Shown: piece by piece, positions 1-13,021 of the stretch | Layout: each line of letters starts with the position of its first letter | Position numbering within the stretch: position 1 is the first letter of the stretch | Virus record (IMG/VR): IMGVR_UViG_3300027805_000054 | Location: 1 to 32,477 of that record | Origin: a virus | DNA: 32,477 nt | Direction: 5' to 3' (one strand) | Notes under the pieces: generated by a model | Database searches by the model: none | The model's input: the letters and a program-made list of their open reading frames with translations, nothing else | What the model was told of the DNA's origin: nothing | Program-made: the position numbers and the translations under genes

Positions 1-2117
1 TTGGTTTTTAACGTTTGGGGATTAAGATTCTCAGTTATCTTTTTAAATATTGCCTTGGAAATACCAGTGTCATTCAGTCCGTCAGCGATCGCAGTTTGAA
101 TTATTTTCGGGAAAAATTTTGATAATCGATCAGCAATAAGTTTGCCGCCTGTTTGTTCTAATTTATCAATAGAACCATTGAGAATTGGAGATATTAAGCG
201 TGGTATTAAGGCATCTATCGCCTTTCCTCCTGCTGAAGCTATTCCTGAGCCAACAGCATTATCAACAACATCTACTCTGGTTACATCTTTTATTTTTCTG
301 GCAAACGACGATAAAGAATCATTGATTTCTGGGAATATTGTATCTAAAGCCATTGACAACTGCGATCCTATGACTCCCGAAAAAGCACCAGTTCCGAGTC
401 TCCCCACGTCAAAAAGTAACGGCAAGATTTGATCTGTTACGGAAATTTTGCTACCAAATCCAACTCCTTTTAAAAATCTTTCTCCTATTCCAGAAAAAGT
501 ATTTCCCACTACTGCCTGTGTGCGATTATTCCTGTTTAAGAATTTTTCTAATTCCGCTATTTCACTGCTACTTGATCTAACTCTAGATTCATAAAGTTTG
601 TATTCACTTTCAAGCTTTGCTAATTCCTTGGATTGCTCACTTCTCAGTCTGGTGAGTTGAGAAGTTAGAGACGTTATACTTCTTTCTAGTTCTTGTTTCT
701 GAGCGTCATCAATAGCAGGATTTTGTATTCTTCTCTGCCTCTGATCTATTTTGTTAGACAAAATTCTTTCATCTAATTTGAAGTTATCTTCAACTAATGA
801 TTTACGGGCATCAAGGATATTTTTTTCTTCTTCTAATCCATCCTTTAATTCCTTTAATCTTGTCCTTGCTTTGTCATTAGCACCACCATCTAGTATCCGC
901 GACAAAGTTGCCCTACCCGCAGCACTAGAAAATTTAACAATTTGTCTGTTTGCAGATTCAAAAGCATTATTAATGGTTTTACTTAAACTTGTTTCCAAAG
1001 AAAGCGCGATCGCTTCTGTGAAATTTCCTGTTGCTAATGCCTGAACTGTTGAATTTAATATATTAGTAACTAATGGTTGCTTGATAATGCCTTTAATAAA
1101 AGCTGCTGATGTTTTATTGCCAATAATATCAATAATTCTATTCTCTAAAGTAAAGTTGGCAAGTTGAGAATTTAAGCTCTGAAATACGGTTCTGACTTCT
1201 GTGCCTGCTAAGTCTTGGATTTGCCTATTAAATCCAGTTCCTATGAGTAAGTTGGCTAGTGGACTATTTGTAGGTATTTGTCCAGCGATAAGCCCCGATA
1301 TACTCCCAGTTAGTTCATCAATGGCTGCTGATGCAGATCCCCCTAGCAATGCTTGTATAAATTTAGGGGAATATTGAGCGATCGCGGGGCTAGTGGCAAT
1401 ACCTTCAACTAATGACCTAACTGGACCCGATCCAACTGTAAAATCAAAGAATGAGGCGATCGCGGTTTGAGCTAAAGATTTATCTAAGCTTTGTAAAGCT
1501 GTTCCAATAGCTTTTTGTGTACCAGAGAATATTGAAAATCCTAGTTTTTCTTCAATAGGATTAAATATAGCTCCGGTAATCCCTCTTACGCCCAAGCTAA
1601 CACTGTCAGATATTTTCTTGGAAACAGGAGTAGTATCTAGTTTTAATATTTCTCTAGTAAATCCTTCCCCGAATGGTACAGCAATATTTCCAATAGCTCG
1701 AATATTGTCACTCAAACTAGCGGTTTCGCTAATTGCGTCCTCCGCTTGCTGCGCTATCATCGAGAAAAAACTGTTAGCAACTGGATTTTCTTGAACAGTT
1801 TTTCTTATCTCATTAACAACAGAAAATAAGCCAGTTATTTTTGATGTTATTAGTCCAACGCTGGTGACAGTAGCTACTCCTAGTCCTGCCATCGCTGTGC
1901 TAGTATCAAGAACTTTAAGCCTCGCCGTATCAGCAAAAGCGGCTACAGTTGCCAAAGAACTTCCTGCTAATGCTAAAGACTTAGAAACAGCAGTTGATTC
2001 CTCTTTTAATTTAGCAAAGGCTACACTCGTATCTTTGAGGACTTTACTAGCTGAATCTTTAGCTTGAATTTCTATTTCTATCGGTCTAGTTGGCTCGTTA
2101 TTTCTGTTAGCAGCCAT
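1..2117 (-). CDS. Tape-measure-like tail protein, C-terminus beyond window
   Basis: An open frame of 705 codons runs from an ATG two bases after the stop of the preceding gene to the left edge without a stop, so the product is partial. The N-terminus (charged, then AKDSASKVLKDTSVAF) resembles the start of many tail tape-measure proteins, and the body is a long helical, Ala/Ser/Leu/Ile-rich chain with several weakly hydrophobic stretches. Residues about 425-530 are strongly charged heptad-like sequence (KELKDGLEEEKN, KLESEYKLYESRVR) that should form coiled coil. Tape measures set tail length and line the tail tube. The family is inferred from composition and N-terminus only; no peptidase or lysozyme domain is visible in the part present. 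It could instead be another large internal virion protein linked to the hydrolase gene upstream. Confidence 0.5.
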   Translation of the reverse strand, partial: MAANRNNEPTRPIEIEIQAKDSASKVLKDTSVAFAKLKEESTAVSKSLALAGSSLATVAAFADTARLKVLDTSTAMAGLGVATVTSVGLITSKITGLFSVVNEIRKTVQENPVANSFFSMIAQQAEDAISETASLSDNIRAIGNIAVPFGEGFTREILKLDTTPVSKKISDSVSLGVRGITGAIFNPIEEKLGFSIFSGTQKAIGTALQSLDKSLAQTAIASFFDFTVGSGPVRSLVEGIATSPAIAQYSPKFIQALLGGSASAAIDELTGSISGLIAGQIPTNSPLANLLIGTGFNRQIQDLAGTEVRTVFQSLNSQLANFTLENRIIDIIGNKTSAAFIKGIIKQPLVTNILNSTVQALATGNFTEAIALSLETSLSKTINNAFESANRQIVKFSSAAGRATLSRILDGGANDKARTRLKELKDGLEEEKNILDARKSLVEDNFKLDERILSNKIDQRQRRIQNPAIDDAQKQELERSITSLTSQLTRLRSEQSKELAKLESEYKLYESRVRSSSSEIAELEKFLNRNNRTQAVVGNTFSGIGERFLKGVGFGSKISVTDQILPLLFDVGRLGTGAFSGVIGSQLSMALDTIFPEINDSLSSFARKIKDVTRVDVVDNAVGSGIASAGGKAIDALIPRLISPILNGSIDKLEQTGGKLIADRLSKFFPKIIQTAIADGLNDTGISKAIFKKITENLNPQTLKT

Positions 2118-2119
2118 GA

Positions 2120-5100
2120 TTATTTTTTAACTCTAGATTGTACGAAATTACGAATTTTTTCTTTCTCAGTTCCAATCTTTTCTTTTAATTGATTGGAAAT
2201 AATATCAACTTCTTCCTGGAAATTAATTAGGGATTTATCAGCTTCTTTTAGTTTCTTGCTAATAGTTCCTTGTCCTAATTGAACACCAATTAATTTAGCT
2301 TCACCTACTATTGCTTTTTTGAGTTTTTGCCGTCTTGTTGTTGGCTTGTCTTTGTTTTTAATTCTATCAATTAAGTCACGTGTCCTCAAGTAAGCTCGTT
2401 CTAAATCTTGCCCTAAACCTCCCAATGTTGATGAGAGAGTACCCCTACCAAGCTTTGAGAGAAGTCGCTGCCTATTGTACTCTTTGGGATTTGAGGAATA
2501 ATTCAATCTGCATTTTTTCTCAGGAGGTAAACAGATATCACCACAGCGTTTATTATCTCCTGAACACTGATTAAGGAAGTCCAATTTAACTTCTAAATCA
2601 ACTTTAAAAATACCATTCAAGGTTGATGATCTCTGGATTTCGTAAGCATCAGTTTTTGGCTCAGAGGGTGGTTTAGTTTTAGTCGTGCGAGGTTTTCTGG
2701 CAGATGGCTTTTTAGTGGATGGTTTCTTGGGAGTCTTAGATGGAGTTGGACTTGTCACTTTAGCCGTTTCTTTGGTAGCCGCTTTTCTTCTGGCGTTAAA
2801 GGCAACTCTTTTTTTCTCCTTTCTGCCTAACTCTTCAAGACTTCCTTCGTAATATCCAAAAGATTCTCTAATAGCATCTCTAACTCGATTATCCTCAAGG
2901 TAATCTTTTGCTGAATGTCCTTTTACGGTGCTAATCCACTGCTGTCTAGCACCGCTACCAATATTGGGAATATTTGATACCGGATCTTGAGAACTGATAA
3001 TAGTCCGATGTCTTCTGGATTGATTCTCTGCAAATCCAAAATGAGGTGTTCCTAAATTAACAACATTAACTTGTCTAAGAACTTCTTTCCCGGTTGGATT
3101 TCCTTTTATGTCCATTCGAGAAAGTAACTCTAATGCTTCTTTAGTTGTTTGCCCAGCCATGCCATGAGCGACAACATTTATCTTTTTATATTTATTTTTG
3201 AGTTCGGATGGATTACTCGCTTTTCTCTGTATTCCATAAGCATATAAATGAGCCGCTAAATCTATTGCATCTTGATTTTTTCCTCTTTTAAATGTTTGCA
3301 AATAATTCTTCATTCCATCAAGAATTTCATCTCCATTACCAGTTTCATTTGATTTTTTATTAATACCCGTTTCTTGTAAATCAAATGGAATTACATAATT
3401 ATTTTGAGTAAGCCAATAATCACCATCGTTATCAGGTTCTTCTCTTTGGAGTAACTTTTTAATTTCTTCTGCTCCATGCCCTTTGCCTGAACCAACAGCA
3501 AATGTAATATTATCTTGAGGAACATGAACCAATCTAAGCTTGACGGCTCTTTCTTCTGCTAATTTAGCAGATTCATCAAAACCTTCACGATATTTCCCTT
3601 TAGTTTGTTCATAAGTTCTGATAGTTGTTCCCAGCAAAAACGCTCCTACTGCTCCGGCCGTCCAAGCGATTGGGGCTGAACCACTAAATTTAATTAATGC
3701 CTCTAGTCGTTTGTTCGTAGTGACAATATCTTTCAGTTGCCGTTTAGCTTCCCGTTCATTTTTATTTCTACCAGATAATCCAGATACAGCGATCGCTCTC
3801 GTACCCAAGCTACGTTTTCTCGCTACACCAGATACAATTCTCTGCGCTGATTCTGGATTTCTATCTGCTAATTTAATAGCGGATCTCATCTCATCTATTG
3901 GCATAGAACCATAACCAACTACACCTTTGCTAGACGCAATTTTTCTTAATTCTCGAATAGTGTAATTATTGCCAGTTTCAGGATTAATAATATAATCCTC
4001 TTCTTTTTTAGGTTCTGGATTAATCTGTTGAGTATTTTCTTCTAACTTGAATCGAGCGATCGCTTGATTGAGCTGTGATAATTCTGATGGTTTTGCTAGT
4101 TCAGAAGTTTTTAACTTACAAACATTATCTTTTTCAATACAAGTAGAACCGCAAGAAATACCAACTTTGCAGCGTTTCCTTTTACCCTTTAATATACCTT
4201 TCTTGGGAACAGCATCATAATAAATGTAAATACTGTCAGAACGTTTTGTTGTAGATTGGTAAGTTAAATTTCCATCTTTAAATGTGAACTTAAAAGGTTT
4301 ATTCTCAAGAGTGAATAAACCTGTTATTTCTCCATTCGGAGAAGATTTGATATTAACTATTTTACCTATCTGCTTATTACAAGCTCGACTAAGTAAAACA
4401 CTAAACTGTTTGATGACTAAATCTTTGCTGGAATTAGCTGCATCAAACCGTCCAACTCCAGACAAGGACTTTTTTAAGATTAAATCTCTCCCTTCTGTGT
4501 ATAAGTTAGATACAGAATCTTTCTTTGTGCGATCAAAATATCTATTCAGTATATCTTGAGTTGATTTATTGACTTCTACTCCGTCCCACACATTATTATT
4601 TTTCTCCCCTGTCCACTGATTATTTTTTGTCATTTTGTAGTGGACGCTAGAATAATACAAAGAATGTCCATTTGCCTTTACATTAGTTTTATTAGGCATT
4701 GTCACTCCATATATTCTTTCAACAGGATCTTTATCAGGGTCTATCAAGCTTAATCCAGTGGGACGAGTTAAGCCAAAATAAGGACTTCCTGTAGTTATAA
4801 CTCTGATATCTTTTACACCCAATTTATCCAAAATTTCGTAGGCTTCTCGCGTTGGCATCCCGCCCCCCGACTGCCCCATTAAATTTATTGGCTTATCTGG
4901 GAATTTCTGATGATAAGCATAAGCTCTAGCAGCGATTCTTACCGCAACATCGCTACGTCCTTTTGTTAGATTATCTTTTAACAAAGCGCGAGTTGCTTTC
5001 TTCAGAAAACTAGGACTAAGAACAGTTTCACCTTTTTCGGCAATTATTTCTTGTTCTGGTGACTCAATTCCAACAACATGATGATCTGGGAGCATTTTAC

Positions 5101-6475
5101 CAATTTGCTGTCCCATGTAATCTGCTTCTAATCCTTTTACACCTCCTACTCCACCAGTAAAAAATGTAATTTGGTTAACTTTATTCTGAGTATATCGGCT
5201 TTCCACTTCTGCGCCATCAGCATTGCTTTGATCTTTGACCGATCTATAACCTGCTTTTAACTCAGACGGAGTTTGATATATTTTTGCTTGTTCCTTGGCT
5301 AGTTCCGCAGAATTAGAAAATCCTGCCTGAAATCTTGCTTTTTGAACTAAATAAGTAGACGTAGGTATTCCTAGCAATAATGCTCCACTAGCGATCGCTG
5401 CTAACTGTAAACCTTCAGGAGATTTTAATTTCAACGAATTGAGCTGTCCTTCTCGGCAAACAGATTTTTTAGAAATGCAAATATCACCGCATTCTTTACC
5501 AATTTTGCAATTAGCTTTATCCATTCTGTCTTGTCGAACGGGAGTAGCTAATCTGTCTTTTACAAATTTCCTAAAGTCGGCATCTTCAAAATATGCGTCT
5601 TGTCCATGTTCAGCTACTTTATTGAAAGATTTTCTGTTAACCGCTTTACCTCCACCTGCTCTATTGACAATATAATCTTTGTCTGATGCGGCAGTCACAA
5701 TATCACCATTACCAGGGATGATATCAACGTCAGGAGAACCAATGGCAGTTGTTTTAGCTTTCACTCCTAATGTGTGGAGAATTTCATTAGTCTCCTGTAC
5801 TGTTAAGCCACCGCCGGAATGCCCTATTAATTGAAAGTCAACATTGGGATTAGCTTTTTTATATGCCAATAATTTAGCAGCTAATTGTCTAGCTACTGGA
5901 TTATGTTTTTTTTGAGCTACTGTTTTGATGAATAATTCCAGTGCTTCATTCACAGCTTTACCTGCACCATCTTTTGCAGGATTACTAGCTACGTTAAAAT
6001 CTTTGTATTCAATTGGTTCTGAATAAAGATTTCTAATTCCAAGAGATTTGATGTTTTCCTCTAGTTTTACGCTTTCAGAAAAAGCATCTTTTGTGCCAAA
6101 TCCACCAACCGCAAATACAGCCGTCTTGATGTTATCTGGTAATTTAGGTGCTTTTATTTTCTCTGATTCTTTCAGTGCTATCTTGCCACTTTCAGTAAAA
6201 CCTTTAATGTAATCCTGTTTTATTTTTTGAATACCAGCGATCGCTCCCAACGTACCAGCAGCAACAAGAGCCGTCCCACCGCCAGTCGCAGCAGCAGTGA
6301 TTAATGCAGTTTTTCCAAAATTATTTGATTTGGACGATTCAGGTTGAGAAAGTTTCTGTTCACCATCTCTACATTTTGATTTTTTGGGAATACAAATCTC
6401 ACCACATTTTTTACCCTTTCTACATACGGCATCAAAGACTTCTTTTCGGTACTTGCTGTTGTTTGCGATCGCCAT
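2120..6475 (-). CDS. Triplicated Cys-motif / hydrophobic segment / alpha-beta hydrolase-like protein
   Basis: This 1451-aa protein starts at an ATG with a good ribosome-binding site (AAGGAAGG). It is built from three repeated modules plus a tail. Each module has a four-Cys motif (residues 18-35, 323-340, 769-786), a hydrophobic helix, a conserved amphipathic stretch of the type GFxxSAxLAxExA, then an alpha/beta-hydrolase-like core. Core 1 has GHSGGG (Ser220) with candidate Asp258 and His290. Core 2 has GQSGGG (Ser536) with Asp583 and His604. Core 3 has AHGMAG, where the nucleophile position is Gly1105, but keeps Asp1164 and His1187. A Lys/Pro-rich linker (about 1240-1285) and a fourth Cys motif (1304-1322) precede a charged, coiled-coil-like C-terminus. 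The serine nucleophile, acid and histidine order is that of lipases/esterases; the substrate is unknown. It lies in a close-packed row with the two other Cys-motif genes and the tape-measure candidate. The hydrolase fold is inferred from motif order. Confidence 0.6.
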   Translation of the reverse strand: MAIANNSKYRKEVFDAVCRKGKKCGEICIPKKSKCRDGEQKLSQPESSKSNNFGKTALITAAATGGGTALVAAGTLGAIAGIQKIKQDYIKGFTESGKIALKESEKIKAPKLPDNIKTAVFAVGGFGTKDAFSESVKLEENIKSLGIRNLYSEPIEYKDFNVASNPAKDGAGKAVNEALELFIKTVAQKKHNPVARQLAAKLLAYKKANPNVDFQLIGHSGGGLTVQETNEILHTLGVKAKTTAIGSPDVDIIPGNGDIVTAASDKDYIVNRAGGGKAVNRKSFNKVAEHGQDAYFEDADFRKFVKDRLATPVRQDRMDKANCKIGKECGDICISKKSVCREGQLNSLKLKSPEGLQLAAIASGALLLGIPTSTYLVQKARFQAGFSNSAELAKEQAKIYQTPSELKAGYRSVKDQSNADGAEVESRYTQNKVNQITFFTGGVGGVKGLEADYMGQQIGKMLPDHHVVGIESPEQEIIAEKGETVLSPSFLKKATRALLKDNLTKGRSDVAVRIAARAYAYHQKFPDKPINLMGQSGGGMPTREAYEILDKLGVKDIRVITTGSPYFGLTRPTGLSLIDPDKDPVERIYGVTMPNKTNVKANGHSLYYSSVHYKMTKNNQWTGEKNNNVWDGVEVNKSTQDILNRYFDRTKKDSVSNLYTEGRDLILKKSLSGVGRFDAANSSKDLVIKQFSVLLSRACNKQIGKIVNIKSSPNGEITGLFTLENKPFKFTFKDGNLTYQSTTKRSDSIYIYYDAVPKKGILKGKRKRCKVGISCGSTCIEKDNVCKLKTSELAKPSELSQLNQAIARFKLEENTQQINPEPKKEEDYIINPETGNNYTIRELRKIASSKGVVGYGSMPIDEMRSAIKLADRNPESAQRIVSGVARKRSLGTRAIAVSGLSGRNKNEREAKRQLKDIVTTNKRLEALIKFSGSAPIAWTAGAVGAFLLGTTIRTYEQTKGKYREGFDESAKLAEERAVKLRLVHVPQDNITFAVGSGKGHGAEEIKKLLQREEPDNDGDYWLTQNNYVIPFDLQETGINKKSNETGNGDEILDGMKNYLQTFKRGKNQDAIDLAAHLYAYGIQRKASNPSELKNKYKKINVVAHGMAGQTTKEALELLSRMDIKGNPTGKEVLRQVNVVNLGTPHFGFAENQSRRHRTIISSQDPVSNIPNIGSGARQQWISTVKGHSAKDYLEDNRVRDAIRESFGYYEGSLEELGRKEKKRVAFNARRKAATKETAKVTSPTPSKTPKKPSTKKPSARKPRTTKTKPPSEPKTDAYEIQRSSTLNGIFKVDLEVKLDFLNQCSGDNKRCGDICLPPEKKCRLNYSSNPKEYNRQRLLSKLGRGTLSSTLGGLGQDLERAYLRTRDLIDRIKNKDKPTTRRQKLKKAIVGEAKLIGVQLGQGTISKKLKEADKSLINFQEEVDIISNQLKEKIGTEKEKIRNFVQSRVKK

Positions 6476-6498
6476 ATTATCCTTCCTTAAATGTATTT

Positions 6499-7620
6499 TT
6501 ATTCTGTTACTTTTTTAGGACGACCTCGACCTCGTTTCGTTTCAGCAGCAACTTGATTTGTTGCAACAATAGCTTTTGCTGTCTGCTCTACAGGAAATGA
6601 TTCTGGATCTTCTGTTGATTTTGATTTTTCCTTAGAAGATGGAGATATTTCTGATTTTGGCTTATTCTTTCCAAGTAATTTTTTAGCTTGTCTGCCAGTA
6701 TTTTTTGCAACGTTTGAAGCTGTCATCTTGATATCTTTTCCAGCAAGCTTCAAGTTACTTCCAATAGCACTAACAGCATTTTGAGTACCAGCTTTAACAG
6801 CACCCGCGGCAGCTCCTAACGAAGCCCCTCTTGTTGTTCCAATAACGCCCGCCATATTCCTTCTGTTTTCGTATTCTTCTTTTCTTGATATTTTTCCTCC
6901 AAGGGATTCTCTTACTTTTCTCGACTGTTCTTCTGCGGCGCGTACACCTTTTACTCCTTCTCCTCCTGCTTTTAAAGCTGCTTTGGCTATGTCAGTACCT
7001 TTTGTAAATTCTTCCTTTCCTTCCTTCGCTGCCTGTTTCAAGCGACTGCCTATAGCTTTCGCTCCACGTCCCAACTCGTTTCTGTTTAAGTACGCAACTC
7101 CACCAGCACCAGCTACAGTAGCCGCGCCAACTAAACCAGCACCAACACCAGCCGCAACACCACCAGGAGACTTTAATCTACCCGCAGCTTGTCTCATCGC
7201 ACCAGCATTGCCAGTGCCGTTATATTTTTTACATTTAGCACCCTTGGGTAAGCAAACTTTTCCGCAAGCTACGCCACCTTTTTTACACTTGACTTGTGCA
7301 TCTAATCTCACAAAGCCAAAAGCATATTCGCAGGGACTATCCATGCTGTCAGTTTTAATGCCATAACCACTTTCTAAAAAGCCTCTAGCATATTCATTGA
7401 TTTCTTCTGAATCCTCTGGAGAGTAATTAAATCCTATTTCATTGCCATCAGCAGCATAATTGTAGATGTCGCCGCCACTCATTAACTGACCAACGATCAT
7501 GTCTTCACTTAATGATGCTGTCAGAATAGTTACTGGTGCATCAAATTCATCTGCATAAACTTTGCCGATCTCAGTTAAAACATCAGTTGTTTCAGAGTCA
7601 AAGTGTTCAGTATCAAACAT
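6499..7620 (-). CDS. Cys-motif protein with hydrophobic segment and AT-hook-like C-terminus
   Basis: This 373-aa protein has no family I recognise. The start is an ATG with GAGAGGAA upstream, one base after the stop of the JAMM-like gene. Residues 1-100 are acidic and soluble-looking. Cysteines 112, 119, 123 and 130 form the same C-x6-C-G-x2-C-L-x5-C-K motif as in both neighbours. A Gly/Ala-rich hydrophobic segment at about 152-178 follows LKSPGG, matching the LKSPEG before the hydrophobic helix of module 2 in the downstream 1451-aa protein, and is followed by a similar charged helix. The C-terminal third is basic and repetitive with a Ser/Lys/Glu linker, and ends in KRGRGRPKK, which resembles an AT-hook. 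It looks like one of the neighbour's modules with the hydrolase core absent. Membrane or virion location is inferred; the DNA-binding hint is weak because basic tails are common. Confidence 0.6.
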   Translation of the reverse strand: MFDTEHFDSETTDVLTEIGKVYADEFDAPVTILTASLSEDMIVGQLMSGGDIYNYAADGNEIGFNYSPEDSEEINEYARGFLESGYGIKTDSMDSPCEYAFGFVRLDAQVKCKKGGVACGKVCLPKGAKCKKYNGTGNAGAMRQAAGRLKSPGGVAAGVGAGLVGAATVAGAGGVAYLNRNELGRGAKAIGSRLKQAAKEGKEEFTKGTDIAKAALKAGGEGVKGVRAAEEQSRKVRESLGGKISRKEEYENRRNMAGVIGTTRGASLGAAAGAVKAGTQNAVSAIGSNLKLAGKDIKMTASNVAKNTGRQAKKLLGKNKPKSEISPSSKEKSKSTEDPESFPVEQTAKAIVATNQVAAETKRGRGRPKKVTE

Positions 7621-7621
7621 T

Positions 7622-8293
7622 TTAAATTTCCTCTCGCTTATAAGTCATTCCTAAATCTTTAGCCGTTCTTTTAATAACTTCGTGGTGATAATCACCCTCT
7701 GCCACATCTATTCTCATCCTGCCTGTAATGATTTTGGTAGCAAATTCTTTATAAACCTCACCTTCGTACTTTTCGTAAGCTGGTTTAATGCGATCGCTCC
7801 ACAACTTTTCATCCCAACCAGATGGAGGAGGTTTGATAGAGTGCCGATAACCATTGCTAACGGCTCTCATTTCTTTGCAATTAGTGATACAAGCAACTTG
7901 AATATCGGCGGAGGAAAAGCTTAAACCTTTGCTTCTAGCATCATTCCTACTCCATCCCAAATTAGGATGATTGTGAGTAACAATTGAGCCTCGCATTTTC
8001 AATAAATCATCTACTGTTAAATTAACTGAAGTGCGATCGCCTCCCTTAGCCAAAATTACTCTACCTTTATCATCAATAATTAATGCTTTTTCCGTTGGTA
8101 AATCTTTAATTTTATCTTCGTAGCGATGAACAATCTTTTCTAATTGCTTTTCGCTAAGACGACATTTCTTGATTCTGGGAATACAAGCATCACCACATTG
8201 ATAATTAGTTTTTTTGCACTTTAGGGTTTGATTTTGGAAGTCTGTCCTTGCTTCGATTCTTCCCTTTAATCTCGCTAGGGGCAGCAGTTTCAT
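7622..8293 (-). CDS. Cys-motif protein with JAMM-like metal-binding signature
   Basis: A 223-aa protein with an ATG start ten bases after GGAGG. Cysteines 26, 33, 37 and 44 form the four-Cys motif shared with the next two genes. Residues 80-135 hold a beta-strand pair and THNHP (His107, His109) followed by FSSAD (Ser127, Asp130). H-x-H-P then S-x2-D is the metal-ligand pattern of JAB/JAMM proteins and of RadC, although the gap between His109 and Ser127 is longer than the usual seven or so residues; a Glu near residue 65 could be the upstream acid. Such domains are isopeptidases or peptidases in characterised JAMM families and are also known attached to phage proteins. The C-terminus is charged and helical. 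Its position straight after the neck genes suggests a virion-associated enzyme. Assignment to JAMM is by motif only, and a structurally different metal-binding domain is possible. Confidence 0.5.
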   Translation of the reverse strand: MKLLPLARLKGRIEARTDFQNQTLKCKKTNYQCGDACIPRIKKCRLSEKQLEKIVHRYEDKIKDLPTEKALIIDDKGRVILAKGGDRTSVNLTVDDLLKMRGSIVTHNHPNLGWSRNDARSKGLSFSSADIQVACITNCKEMRAVSNGYRHSIKPPPSGWDEKLWSDRIKPAYEKYEGEVYKEFATKIITGRMRIDVAEGDYHHEVIKRTAKDLGMTYKREEI

Positions 8294-8784: not shown

Positions 8785-9176
8785 ATAGGGAAACCTATAC
8801 CAAATTTGATATTTCCATCCCATTCATCTTCATCATCAACTCTGGGTGAGAGTGTTCCAACTAACAATTCATCCTTGAGCATTTTGTATCTTCTGCCGTA
8901 GGTTGTTAGCTGAAAATCATCCTGTTGAGCAGATGGAGATGCACTACCACTACCAGAAGCCATTGCGATCGCTCTACCGCCAGTTTCCGCAGTTTGAGCA
9001 TCTTCCATTTCCAGGAAATGCGCCATCAGCAACATAATTCCAGTATCCCGACGTTGACCCCAAAGAGATGTAGCTACAAACTCCTTAGCTTGCTCTAAAG
9101 CAAAATCAACAATTTCGGGATCTTGAGTCTGGAACTTTTTGTATCTAGCAAGAAAACTGGGGCGTGTGACGACCAT
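8781..9176 (-). CDS. DUF4054-type head-tail connector protein
   Basis: This 131-aa protein has the helical pattern of the DUF4054 connector family: an N-terminal FLARYKKFQTQDPEIV, a helix with FALEQAKEFV, a Trp (SLW), then LLMAHFLEM followed by a Gly/Ser/Ala-rich loop and a YGRRY-containing end. In those families the protein forms a ring below the portal and closes the filled head. It starts at an ATG two bases after the stop of the upstream gene and ends in a TGA overlapping the next start, so translation is probably coupled. The length fits the family. Assignment is from motif layout plus position two genes after the major capsid gene. Confidence 0.7.
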   Translation of the reverse strand: MVVTRPSFLARYKKFQTQDPEIVDFALEQAKEFVATSLWGQRRDTGIMLLMAHFLEMEDAQTAETGGRAIAMASGSGSASPSAQQDDFQLTTYGRRYKMLKDELLVGTLSPRVDDEDEWDGNIKFGIGFPI

Positions 9177-9178
9177 AA

Positions 9179-9688
9179 TTATCTCCCAGTAGCAATAGAA
9201 CCGGAAATAGTTTGAGACATAGCCGCAACTTCATCCTGAATATCTTTGAGTCTATCTGCAAGCAACTTTCTCACTTCAGGACGACGATCTACATTCAAAC
9301 TTAGTGACAACCAATCAACATCTTTAGAGTTTTCAGCTAACTCTTGAATGATGCCGATATCCTCAAAATCAGTGGTATCTCTGACTGGAAATTCTGCGGT
9401 TGGCGTGTAAATAGTCAAAGCACCACATTTAATCAAATTGTTAATGGCAATCTGATTAACTTCATGCTTGAGAACACTATTCCACTTGTCAGTATCAATG
9501 AAATTAGTTCCTTTATTCAAGGTGACAACTTCAATTTCTACCCTGTCAGCTAAAGTTAATTTGCTGTCTTTTTTAGCAGCAGTTGGACGCTCAATCTGGT
9601 AATTGAACAATCTTGCACCGCGCACACCAAATGGTATTTGCCGGCTTTTCTCTCTTTCAGGGTGGTAAGCGATCGCAAAGTAGGACAT
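9179..9688 (-). CDS. Unknown virion/head-module protein
   Basis: A 169-aa protein I do not recognise. It lies two bases after the major capsid gene and two bases before the connector gene, in the same operon. The middle region (about 50-110) alternates strands and short helices (VEIEVVTLNKGTNF, GALTIYTP), followed by a charged helical tail ending in a Ser/Thr-rich stretch. It has no Cys-rich motif, signal peptide or membrane segment. Its place between capsid and connector suggests an accessory head or neck component, for example a second connector or a minor capsid protein. The function is inferred from neighbours only. Confidence 0.55.
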   Translation of the reverse strand: MSYFAIAYHPEREKSRQIPFGVRGARLFNYQIERPTAAKKDSKLTLADRVEIEVVTLNKGTNFIDTDKWNSVLKHEVNQIAINNLIKCGALTIYTPTAEFPVRDTTDFEDIGIIQELAENSKDVDWLSLSLNVDRRPEVRKLLADRLKDIQDEVAAMSQTISGSIATGR

Positions 9689-9690
9689 AA

Positions 9691-10623
9691 TTACACCCCA
9701 ATAACAATGTGAGCAGCGTAACGGCGATATACAATAATGCCGTTGTAGTCAAAACTGTAACCACGATAAAAAGCCCAAGGTCCATCGGGAATTAAAGGAC
9801 GAGGGCGGAATGGGTCAGTGATTCTAGCTTTGAAGTACGAGGGATCGCGCTTATAAAACACGGCCACAGCTTCGCCATTCGGTCCGGCAGTTTCAAGTTC
9901 AGCCATTGGCTGAATGTCTTTGATGCTGGGATTATTTTCCAAGAAATATCTCAAAACTGATCTCTCTTGTCCATATTCACTGAGGCGGAACTGACTCATT
10001 AAGAAGTCGTAGCGATTTTCAGGAAGCAAGAGGGTATCGTATTTGATAATTTTGTTGGTAGCTTGCTTGCCACCTTGAATCCCTGCATTTAGTACAGCTA
10101 GAACGTTGTTAGCGTTCATGGTACTGCCATCTAGCTTATATAAAGCCATTGACCGTAGCCAAGCAGGATGATTGAAAAAACCAGCAAGTCCAGTTTTGAC
10201 ATCCCCAAACAACAACAACTTATTCAAGATTTCTTGATAAGCGCGTTGAATTAATATGATCTTTTGTTGTTCAATGGGAACGTTTCTTTTTAAGGTTGCA
10301 GCTATTTCTTTTTCTGTAAATCTGTAGCCATTGCGATAGGTGAATATTCCTTGGTTGAACTGTTCACCAACCATTTCCACATAAGGTAAATTGCTGGTTT
10401 GTCCCCGTGCCAATTCAAAACCACCTACGCCATCAATAGTGGTATAGCTGGTAGATTCAGCCCAAGCTAAATTCTGTTCTTCAATCTGAAATAACATCCC
10501 AGCAGCCGCAGGTAATTCAGGTTTTAACGTCTGAATTACTTGAGCTTCTTGATATTCTAATTCTCTCTGGAAAGCTCCAATGGTAGGAGCATCCAATCTA
10601 ATTTCTGATGCAGCTAAAGACAT
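9691..10623 (-). CDS. Major capsid protein, DUF2184-like
   Basis: This 310-aa protein matches the DUF2184 major capsid family by overall pattern: an N-terminal helix, a segment with aromatic strand (WAESTSYTTIDGVG), the conserved RNGYRFTEKEI region, a long helix (IILIQRAYQEILNKLLLFG), GLAGFFNHP, a Pro/Asn turn (LLLPENRYDFL), and a C-terminal strand set ending VYRRYAAHIVIGV. In this family the protein forms the icosahedral shell with the HK97 fold. The start ATG follows AGGAG at proper spacing. It comes directly after the decoration protein and protease, the usual order protease, decoration, capsid. Length is typical. Confidence 0.8.
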   Translation of the reverse strand: MSLAASEIRLDAPTIGAFQRELEYQEAQVIQTLKPELPAAAGMLFQIEEQNLAWAESTSYTTIDGVGGFELARGQTSNLPYVEMVGEQFNQGIFTYRNGYRFTEKEIAATLKRNVPIEQQKIILIQRAYQEILNKLLLFGDVKTGLAGFFNHPAWLRSMALYKLDGSTMNANNVLAVLNAGIQGGKQATNKIIKYDTLLLPENRYDFLMSQFRLSEYGQERSVLRYFLENNPSIKDIQPMAELETAGPNGEAVAVFYKRDPSYFKARITDPFRPRPLIPDGPWAFYRGYSFDYNGIIVYRRYAAHIVIGV

Positions 10624-10634
10624 AATGCTCCTAA

Positions 10635-11525
10635 TTAAAAGTCAACTTTACAAAGAGTGATGTTTTTGCCAAAAGCTTGTTGAGTAGCAGACAGGATAGT
10701 TACATTTGAGGAAACATTCGCCGTACCACTGGTTGATTTGGTAAGTTTGCCTTGGTTGCCAGCAGTAATTTGAATACGTGCGGTGTCACCAATCACCAAA
10801 TCCGACTCAACAGTTTCAATCCAGATGCCTTTATAAGTTCCGCTATTTTTTAGAACTTCCATCGTTCTGCCAAATGCGTAACCGTCTTGAGCATTTTGGA
10901 ATGTCCCAACTTGCTCGGTAGCTTGGCTGAGAATGGTAACGCCGTAATTAGAGTAATTGGAAGCATGATCTACTAAAGTCATTGCGCCAACACCCTCTAG
11001 GGGATCTTGGTAGTAAGCTGTCTGTCTGCCAACAAATCTACCGAAAGGAATAATAGCGTTAGCTGCGCCTGTTACAGTCTTAGTGATCGTCAAGTCATTG
11101 GTAGTTGCACTAGAGTTAGAGGTAACAGTCAAGACAGTACCAACGGAGCGGGCGGTCAAGGTGATGACGCTAGTGCCAGTGTTTAAGGAGACGTTGACCA
11201 CAGAATAAAATTCTGGATCTGTAATCATCGCGTTGTACAAGCCAGTTCCTAATTCTGCGGTTGTCGCACTAGCATCAGTGCTGAAAGAATCGGATAAGTT
11301 CTTTTGACCTCCACCGATCGCTGCAATGGTCACAGTATAAATTGCAGAATTATCTACTGTTGCGGGTGGGGTGATGGTTACGGTGTCGTAGGTCGCGTAG
11401 TTATTTAACGCAGGAATTATAATTGCAGAACCAATTCCAGACATCATCCCAGCGAGCGCCGGAGACATATATCGGGAATAATTGCTTTGCCCAGTGGCAA
11501 CATTAATTGATTGAAATTCAGGCAT
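10635..11525 (-). CDS. Capsid decoration / structural cement-like protein with inserted Ig-like domain
   Basis: A 296-aa protein lying between prohead protease and major capsid, the usual slot for a head decoration or cement protein. Residues 1-40 and about 155-296 look like one domain (FGRFVGRQTAYYQDP, then strands ending ITLCKVDF). Between them, about 45-140, sits a Thr/Ser/Val-rich segment (YTVTIAAIGG, TITLTAR-like strands, TVTSNSSA) resembling an all-beta insert seen in several phage surface proteins. The insert would be displayed on the outside of the capsid. The shine-dalgarno before its ATG is weak, so translation may depend on the preceding gene, whose stop lies only five bases upstream. 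Assignment is by position and composition. Confidence 0.6.
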   Translation of the reverse strand: MPEFQSINVATGQSNYSRYMSPALAGMMSGIGSAIIIPALNNYATYDTVTITPPATVDNSAIYTVTIAAIGGGQKNLSDSFSTDASATTAELGTGLYNAMITDPEFYSVVNVSLNTGTSVITLTARSVGTVLTVTSNSSATTNDLTITKTVTGAANAIIPFGRFVGRQTAYYQDPLEGVGAMTLVDHASNYSNYGVTILSQATEQVGTFQNAQDGYAFGRTMEVLKNSGTYKGIWIETVESDLVIGDTARIQITAGNQGKLTKSTSGTANVSSNVTILSATQQAFGKNITLCKVDF

Positions 11526-11530
11526 TTTAC

Positions 11531-13021
11531 TTAACTATTTTTGCTAAGGGATAAGGGTTGTTGCCAAGCATTTGCTAATTCTTGCGATCGCTCAGTTTGT
11601 TTTTGTGCAGGATTTTCGCCACTGCGGGTTAAACCAATCATTTGCCGTAAATTGGTGCTGTAAATATCTGAATCAGCAGAATCAGTGCGACCAAAATCAT
11701 CACTGTCATCACCTGATTGAGATTCAATTAGCAAGCGGTCTATCACGCCTTCCAAGTAAGCAGGTGAAGCATTAGACAAATCAACGTCTGGCATGAGTTC
11801 AGAAGCGATCGCATGATAGATGTCGTTTCTACCTAAAGCAGAATCAAACTTAAAGTTAAGACCTAAATCTTCAGCTTTTTTCCAAGCTTCAAGAATGACG
11901 GGAACTGAGTCTTTTCTTGCGATCATTTCTTCCTCATCCCCATATTCTTCATCGCCCTCATCGCCTTCTTCATCATCTTCCTCATCATCTTCCTCATCAT
12001 CTTCATCAGAAGAATCGTATTTTTTCATGTCCATTTTTTTCATGTCCATTTTTTTTATGTCCATTTTTTTCTTTTTGGACTTAGACATCATTTCTTCCTC
12101 ATCCTCGTATTCTTCTTCCTCATCCTCGTCATCTTCCTCAACCATCATTTTCTTTTTCTTGCTGTCTAAAACAAATTCTTCAGAGTCAGCATTCCAGGTA
12201 TAACCGTGCTTTTCAAGAATTGGTAGTGCGTTAGTAGTCACCACTTCGTAAGCATCAGCATGACCTTGATAGCGATCGCGCTCCTCGGTCAATTCTTCAA
12301 TTTGTTGTTGAAGTGCTACTATTTGTTTGTCAAGTTCGATTTCTTTTTCTGATAGAGAATCGGCTTTTATGGCTTGTTTCTCCAAATCAGAAATATGCCC
12401 ACTGACAACAGAGGCAATAAGGGGATCAACTTCGTAAGTAGCTCCCTTGATAGTTAAACTGGCCATAGATTTATGTTTATTAGTTGTTTGATAGGCAACA
12501 TCTTTATCATCACTATCTAAATGCAAGGCAACATCAGAACCCGCACGTCCTTTTTTAGTCAAAGCTACGTGATTGGGTTCAATATCAACTTGAATTGCAT
12601 CGTAATGTTGTCCTCTCCAAGTTCCAGGTTCATTGATGACACGGCATTTATATCCAGTAGATATTTCTGTTGTGTCACCCCTTTCTATGGATCTAACGGC
12701 TTCAGCGTCAGTGACGATCACCACACCTCGAACGTAATCATCCTCTAGAAAAACTGTTGAATCTGTTATCCCTACTTGGTACTGTTTGGCATTTTCAGCA
12801 TTTACTAATCTGTCAGGATGTTCATTAGTAACTATCTGAGAAGCCCATTTTTTTAATGCTTTTTCGTTTTCCTCTCCAGGGCGAAATTCTCTCCTAACTC
12901 CTCCGTCTGGTGTGCGATATTCTAAAATTCCTTGTTTCGCAAACGAACCTACCGCCTTAAAGTAACCTTCAGGCGTTTTGATCGGGCTGCGAATTGTTCC
13001 AGAATCAAATCTTATTGCCAC
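11531..13021 (-). CDS. Prohead protease with scaffold tail, DUF2213-like
   Basis: The first 170 residues match the DUF2213 prohead protease family: a TPEGYFKAVG start region, VTNEHPD, DTTEISTGY, and EPNHVALTKKGRAGSDVAL. The His in NEHP and the Ser in EIST are candidate active-site residues. The rest is scaffold-like: a helical coiled segment (about 205-255), then extremely charged sequence with alternating acidic runs and three KKMDM-type repeats (about 290-365), then a helical C-terminus. The fused scaffold would guide capsid assembly and be cut away on maturation. The start is GTG at 13021 (no ATG fits) and lacks a clear Shine-Dalgarno. It opens the head operon, so its promoter should lie in the 13022-13150 region. 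Confidence 0.8.
   Translation of the reverse strand: MAIRFDSGTIRSPIKTPEGYFKAVGSFAKQGILEYRTPDGGVRREFRPGEENEKALKKWASQIVTNEHPDRLVNAENAKQYQVGITDSTVFLEDDYVRGVVIVTDAEAVRSIERGDTTEISTGYKCRVINEPGTWRGQHYDAIQVDIEPNHVALTKKGRAGSDVALHLDSDDKDVAYQTTNKHKSMASLTIKGATYEVDPLIASVVSGHISDLEKQAIKADSLSEKEIELDKQIVALQQQIEELTEERDRYQGHADAYEVVTTNALPILEKHGYTWNADSEEFVLDSKKKKMMVEEDDEDEEEEYEDEEEMMSKSKKKKMDIKKMDMKKMDMKKYDSSDEDDEEDDEEDDEEGDEGDEEYGDEEEMIARKDSVPVILEAWKKAEDLGLNFKFDSALGRNDIYHAIASELMPDVDLSNASPAYLEGVIDRLLIESQSGDDSDDFGRTDSADSDIYSTNLRQMIGLTRSGENPAQKQTERSQELANAWQQPLSLSKNS
12026..12074 (-). repeat. Three 15-bp tandem units encoding KKMDM repeats
   Basis: Within the protease/scaffold gene the unit catgtccattttttt (plus strand) occurs three times in tandem with only one base difference in the last copy. 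It encodes consecutive Lys-Lys-Met-Asp-(Met/Ile) units in the charged scaffold region. The number of units is likely to vary between related phages by slippage. Confidence 0.85.

Follow-up and report, generated by a model that had tools for sequence, protein, structure and literature searches.

A four-cysteine tag on candidate head-packaged effectors of cyanobacterial phages and its pairing with predicted maturation-protease sites

Three adjacent genes of a 32.5-kb IMG/VR virus record (IMGVR_UViG_3300027805_000054; “the window” hereafter means this whole stretch of 32,477 nucleotides) encode proteins of 1451, 373 and 223 amino acids (aa) that share the motif C-x(5,6)-C-G-x2-C-[IL]-x5-C-[RK], here called the tag. 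We propose, with a probability of about 0.68, that the tag is a short modular domain that forms the N-terminus, either natively or through proteolysis, of head-packaged effectors in several unrelated cyanophage-type tailed phages, and that the maturation protease cuts upstream of it. An earlier note on this DNA had taken one tag on potential effectors of differing kinds within one operon as the mark of a dedicated delivery or assembly system. The locus in related phages, the varied partners, the prophage-only contexts in host genomes and the virion kinases reported for Synechococcus phage S-CBWM1 support this idea, while the pairing with protease sites, a pre-tag domain and cassette swaps go beyond it.

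A six-frame scan of the window gave exactly six minus-strand matches (four in the 1451-aa open reading frame [ORF] and one in each of the other two), and no further match in any frame, which agrees with the earlier count of six copies confined to these genes. Across 26 diverse copies all four cysteines are invariant and the glycine is at least 90% conserved, and the CGxxCIP version of the tag recovered 94 stretches from IMG/VR compared with 14 for the reversed pattern used as a control; on these grounds the tag is not a chance pattern. The capsid proteins of the window and of Aphanizomenon phage vB_AphaS-CL131 (CL131) share 91% identity, and the gene order around the capsid gene is the same in both: DUF2213 protease, cement, capsid, DUF4054 protein, small protein, JAMM-like, 373-aa, 1451-aa and tape measure. 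CL131 has seven strong tags and an eighth, weaker one (gp048), all between the capsid and tape measure genes, and none elsewhere in its 113 kb.

The tag is carried by the CL131 family, Nostoc prophages, Planktothrix phage PaV-LD (four copies), S-CBWM1 (five copies) and many IMG/VR contigs; two pattern scans of IMG/VR yielded many more carriers, after several matches were dropped as chance frames. Where the neighborhood was examined, virion genes are nearly always close by. A Nostoc linckia prophage harbors seven tags between its capsid and tape measure genes, and the one further tag in that 9-Mb genome lies inside a second, Mu-like prophage. In a phylum-wide survey of 292 genomes, eight passed E ≤ 0.01, and convincing long-ORF tags were present in two only, both prophages; the remaining matches were one lipoprotein-like protein and short frames. 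Because the only convincing carriers among the 292 genomes are prophages, the reading of the tag as a host protein domain is rejected. Tag matches were found in 10 of 218 Nostocaceae genomes. Every context inspected is a prophage in which a portal, terminase, protease or capsid gene lies close to the tag, some of these neighbors being identified solely by sequence likeness to annotated ones. The tag was not found in the genomes of 2AV2, Mic1, S-CBS4, Ma-LMM01, S-TIM5, S-CRM01 and S-B68. A tblastn search with a 27-aa tag consensus returned no match even in known carriers and is hence uninformative. The clustering in virion operons with varied partner domains that had been put forward as a check is therefore seen in cyanobacterial phages and prophages; relatives have the tag at the same locus, and the tags in host genomes lie in prophages rather than being widespread in unrelated host proteins. 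Many of the contigs are related, so the sequence counts given here are not independent, and it is the agreement across lineages that carries the argument.

The effector domains joined to the tag are unrelated to one another. Pfam searches of about 30 tagged proteins (some matches being below the curated cut-off) identified Pkinase, APH, a HipA-like kinase, Zeta_toxin, DnaJ, LPD1, a zincin peptidase, GNAT, cutinase/DUF676-type hydrolase and DUF3626 domains fused to the tag, and one tagged protein is a phage portal joined through the tag to a kinase. In S-CBWM1, gp161 (ChoK-like), gp162 (APH-like) and gp113 (RIO-like) each have the tag at the N-terminus. The gp113 tag (MG450654 70404-70466; L202) ends at the annotated start, and the gene is probably truncated in GenBank because an upstream in-frame start adds the tag. 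According to a published paper (PMC10665884), the S-CBWM1 virions contain APH, ChoK and Rio2 kinases; the presence of three tagged kinases in purified virions is thus taken from the literature. The S-CBWM1 protein gp174, annotated as a virion structural protein and adjoining the capsid gene, also has the tag; the fourth kinase gene, gp173, is without it. Apparent fusions of portal, pre-tag domain, tag and effector were also noticed in Nostocaceae prophages (G344 L196 1805-4708 and G321 L197 7286-11083, both on the minus strand), the portal part being judged by sequence likeness alone.

The S-CBWM1 proteins also bear on whether the tag could be a mere linker or structural staple between virion protein domains (a disulfide or zinc mini-fold), with packaging set by the pre-tag domain or by operon position. 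CL131-type tags do sit between domains, and the pre-tag domain, which occurs in many lineages, could be a cleaved capsid-targeting propeptide as in T4 or SPN3US. In S-CBWM1 and other contigs, however, the tag stands at or near the N-terminus without a pre-tag domain, three such S-CBWM1 proteins are among those reported in virions, and unrelated phages have kept the same 20-residue motif on unrelated enzymes. We consider this explanation unlikely.

Comparison with known families gave the tag no identity. It matches no curated family in Pfam or NCBIfam, and neither a PDB sequence search nor Foldseek returned a significant match, so it did not turn out to be a known domain with a plain function. 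A model of the pre-tag domain plus tag (predicted local distance difference test [pLDDT] of 67.5) had no Foldseek match in the PDB at E ≤ 0.001. The LDL-receptor class A repeat, like the tag a short Cys-rich module (CxxG..CG..CIP..C), was rejected: the likeness is not significant (E = 0.025), the C2-C3 spacing differs, and the repeat is a eukaryotic calcium-binding module. Degenerate two-Cys tags (GxPCGxSFIxxxxxC, CGESHI) occupy the same positions in the L016/L133 proteins, in L054 and at CL131 43704. The core of the tag also occurs outside the effector context, in small proteins ending in CC[KR]xCxxGKACGDxCIxxxxxCxxxxGCAC (L062 4985-5254, minus strand; L067, L090, L092, L101 and L113, the last a cyanobacterial genome); several have signal-peptide or lipoprotein-like N-termini, and they may be homologous or convergent.

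The earlier note had placed a hydrophobic segment after four copies of the tag, which is roughly right. Within 60 aa past the tag, hydropathy peaks at 1.39 for tag 1 (borderline), 1.52 for tag 2 and 1.58 for the 373-aa protein; the segment assigned to tag 3 lies about 150 aa downstream, and the hydropathy scan found none for tag 4 or the JAMM-like protein. Such segments would suit a tag that works after injection, in docking at or translocation across the host membrane, thylakoid or cell envelope, perhaps redox-switched, and not in packaging. The similar core in small lipoprotein-like or signal-peptide proteins likewise suggests compatibility with an oxidizing compartment. That family may be convergent, however, and the sequences seen for many tagged kinases lack a hydrophobic segment; we regard a purely postinjection role as rather improbable.

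The pre-tag domain precedes the tag in many phages and is about 75 aa long (a helix, four strands and a helix). Profile comparison linked the pre-tag domains of the 1451-aa family, the G005 phage and the Mu-like prophages at 95 to 97%, and that of the 373-aa family more weakly (58%). Just upstream of 139 of 175 unique tags stands [RK]-x-D, mostly before A, with R-[LIM]-D-A as the commonest form. Within 22 aa upstream, [RK]xD is present for 40 of 46 CL131/Nostoc-type tags (87%, against 15% in random windows) and in four other lineages for 14 of 14, 5 of 6, 7 of 8 and 4 of 4 tags (83 to 100%). Where no DUF2213 protein was found, the figures are 2 of 16 and 0 of 2, which is background level, and the pairing of R-x-D with the tag is confined to lineages with DUF2213. 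Since tags are kept where the R-x-D site is absent, the idea that the tag itself is the cleavage site is rejected.

The DUF2213 maturation protease/scaffold proteins contain 119 [RK]xD[AS] sites against 16.0 in composition-preserving shuffles (maximum of 29 in 1000; 19 loci, one without an ORF and one with a wrong ORF). One candidate site lies at the N-terminus of the capsid protein (RLDA in the window). In CL131, enrichment of [RK]xD[AS] is seen in the tag genes (12 versus 5.9) and in other structural genes (22 versus 7.7) but not in the rest of the genome (18 versus 17.1). In a forward test on newly found contigs, DUF2213 was present in 10 of 13 with an R-x-D-tag pair, the three misses being fragments of about 20 kb, and in 0 of 4 tag contigs without the site. 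The putative CL131 portal gp012 (8800-12981) is unusually long (1393 aa) and has seven [RK]xD[AS] sites; it is possibly processed too.

Tag phages without DUF2213 have a Mu-like protease wherever a protease is detected; that of the Nostoc Mu-like prophages was missed by Pfam and was assigned by sequence likeness to the S-CBWM1 protease. In prophages with this protease, [DE]-F-[AS] lies 8 to 14 aa before 9 of 10 tags, with LDFV before the tenth; it usually precedes the pre-tag domain too and occurs twice in most of their proteases. A motif common to protease, capsid protein and effectors is thus found statistically, the capsid site being absent in some lineages. The R-x-D upstream of tags could instead have arisen with no protease involved, as a side effect of linkers or coiled coils that are charge-rich and related to one another: one large phage group contributes many of the sites, in repetitive linkers of the RIDALKRKC type, so the site counts are not all independent. 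Yet five lineages show the enrichment, and it is seen in the capsid N-terminus and, against composition-preserving shuffles, in the protease/scaffold. Lineages without DUF2213 do not have it, and a different motif takes the same place where the protease differs. A by-product origin is, in our judgment, quite improbable.

Several observations weigh against packaging and cleavage as proposed above. VFDA, with neither R nor K, precedes tag 1 of the 1451-aa protein; the residue after D is F or K at the JAMM and tag-2 sites; and the capsid proteins of some tag-bearing phages (G010 and the Mu-like prophages) have no site. For the window and CL131 proteins, both virion presence and cleavage are deduced from sequence; virion data from liquid chromatography-tandem mass spectrometry have been published for CL131 (PMC6293099). 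S-CRM01 and S-TIM5 have virion kinases and no detectable tag in their genomes, and the tag is therefore not required for kinase packaging in general.

Close relatives exchange whole effector cassettes at tag ends, as is seen in two pairs. The JAMM-like and 373-aa proteins of the window and of its relative L003 are identical, and the 1451-aa proteins are about 90 to 95% identical across the first three quarters, bar one stretch. There, DNA identity of 80 to 93% up to the end of tag 2 falls to about 30 to 50% through hydrolase module 2 and returns to 96 to 100% near the RFDA site, immediately before the pre-tag domain. A comparison of CL131 with L004 reveals a swap of this kind at another tag. 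The exchange resembles the diversification of polymorphic toxins, with the tag as the constant flank.

The features of the window are collected in Table 1. The model of hydrolase 2 resembles cutinases (Foldseek probability of 1.00, E = 1e-4), and the nucleophile elbow reads GHSGG in module 1, GQSGG in module 2 and HGMAG in module 3; the cutinase-like α/β hydrolase assignment thus draws on the predicted fold for module 2 and on the GxSxG elbow for modules 1 and 2. Module 3 (approximately 2906-3523, minus strand) appears to have lost the catalytic Ser and is probably a catalytically dead copy because HGMAG replaces GxSxG. The 373-aa protein ends in KRGRGRPKKVTE (6499-6530, minus strand), which is weakly AT-hook-like (Pfam E = 0.066) and suggests DNA binding inside the head. 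The 223-aa protein has no Pfam match; its JAMM signature (E, HxHP, SxxD) is invariant in 8 homologues. JAMM-like homologues in gut Clostridia/Ruminococcus contigs (L108, L109) and gut or Fusobacterium phages (H3-H6) align from about residue 45, without the tag, and one of them is annotated as a minor capsid protein. A family scan of the window's three tag proteins found no LPD or MPTase match.

Table 1. Features of the window discussed in the text (PTD, pre-tag domain)
Feature	Position	Strand	Basis
Presumed tape measure protein, N-terminal part	3..2117	-	Synteny with CL131 gp049
1451-aa polyprotein-like gene: tag 1, cutinase-like hydrolase 1, tag 2, hydrolase 2, PTD, tag 3, hydrolase 3, tag 4, helical tail	2120..6475	-	
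Tag 4, 1451-aa ORF	2507..2566	-	
KTDA, candidate site upstream of tag 4	2645..2656	-	
Tag 3, 1451-aa ORF	4115..4171	-	
RSDS, candidate site between PTD and tag 3	4232..4243	-	
PTD upstream of tag 3 (approximate)	4241..4426	-	Profile-profile match (95-96%) to pre-tag domains of other phages
RFDA, candidate site before PTD of 1451-aa protein	4439..4450	-	
Tag 2 plus hydrolase-2 cassette, modelled cutinase-like α/β hydrolase (GQSGG)	4460..5524	-	AlphaFold2 pLDDT 77.8, predicted template modelling score (pTM) 0.79
KKDS, candidate maturation-protease site	4514..4525	-	
Tag 2, 1451-aa ORF; cassette swap relative to L003 starts at its 3′ end	5453..5509	-	
Tag 1, 1451-aa ORF	6368..6424	-	
373-aa gene: PTD (about aa 9-90), site, tag, Gly/Ala-rich hydrophobic stretch, Ala/Lys-rich tail	6499..7620	-	
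Tag of 373-aa protein	7228..7287	-	
RLDA, candidate site directly before tag of 373-aa protein	7297..7308	-	
KTDS, candidate site, 373-aa gene	7345..7356	-	
223-aa gene: tag, then JAMM-like domain (E, HxHP, SxxD conserved)	7622..8293	-	
Tag of JAMM-like 223-aa protein, preceded by R-T-D-F	8159..8218	-	
Major capsid protein, RLDA at aa 9-12 (10588-10599)	9691..10623	-	PF09950
DUF2213 head maturation protease/scaffold, six [RK]xD[AS] sites (about 1 expected)	11531..13021	-	

The most likely role of the tag itself is that of a handle for packaging or ejection. In the mechanism that we propose, effector genes lie among the head and tail genes, and tagged proteins enter the prohead, as published proteomics indicates for three S-CBWM1 kinases and as we suppose for the window. 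When the tag is preceded by a pre-tag domain or by another effector, the head maturation protease would cut between the two. The site statistics suggest R-x-D|[A/S] as the cut site of DUF2213 phages and, probably, [DE]-F-[AS] as that of phages with a Mu-like protease. The tag would then be the N-terminus of the effector, as it already is in S-CBWM1. Tag-headed fragments would stay in the head and be ejected into the cell, where the enzymes would act, and new effectors are acquired through the cassette exchange at tag boundaries seen in the two pairs. The window load would comprise three cutinase-like hydrolase modules (the third apparently without a nucleophile), the JAMM-like protein and the pre-tag domain-tag protein with its basic tail. 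We infer the packaging of these proteins, their injection and the role of the tag, be it packaging handle, ejection handle or docking after entry. A broader version, in which the tag is a transferable packaging and/or ejection signal working across unrelated capsids, and so part of a general cyanophage effector-loading code with sites that co-evolved with each protease and tag-headed cassettes that are exchanged, is possible and is offered tentatively.

Ejection proteins processed by prohead proteases (the T4 internal proteins and Alt, the P1 Dar system and the SPN3US E proteins) are packed in the head and ejected, as proposed here for tagged effectors. N-terminal capsid targeting sequences are used by T4 and P1 (PMC9024508), and in SPN3US the protease cuts itself, the portal and the ejection proteins after A-x-E, with a preference for Ser at P1′ (PMC10052503); R-x-D|[A/S] follows this grammar, and SPN3US is a precedent for the proposed cleavage. 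In contrast to these systems, the four-Cys module lies just after the candidate cut, so it would stay on the mature protein, and it recurs across different capsid proteins and proteases, up to five times per polypeptide. The tagged set also resembles polyvalent proteins (Iyer et al. 2017), being multidomain virion-operon proteins with zincin peptidases, LPD1 and DdrB/LPD5-related regions. Several effector domains per late-operon polypeptide are found in the 1451-aa protein (three hydrolase modules) and in the G309 proteins (LPD1 with a DdrB/LPD5-related region), but here the effectors carry a common tag, and neighboring genes often encode a single domain each. Iyer et al. report a paucity of polyvalent proteins in cyanobacteria, and their main text does not mention cysteine. 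MuF polymorphic toxins (Jamet et al. 2017) similarly place variable C-terminal effectors on a constant virion-associated N-terminal part, and the tag protein of the Nostoc Mu-like prophages directly follows the portal gene, as MuF does. However, neither the tag proteins of the window nor the other tagged proteins scanned match the MuF domain (PF04233/PF06152), and MuF phages have one MuF gene each, with rare exceptions (Jamet et al. 2017), whereas tagged genes are many per phage.

No described tag of this kind was found in the open-access papers searched. If the proposal is correct, a 20-residue motif would be a searchable marker for injected effectors of cyanophages, a group in which most early takeover proteins are unknown, and cyanophage maturation proteases would gain predicted cleavage sites. 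Cassette swaps would account for the sharing of weapons among unrelated phages, and the reported cyanobacterial gap in polyvalent proteins would be filled. The tag would also be a candidate for a signal by which proteins of choice could be loaded into cyanophage particles.
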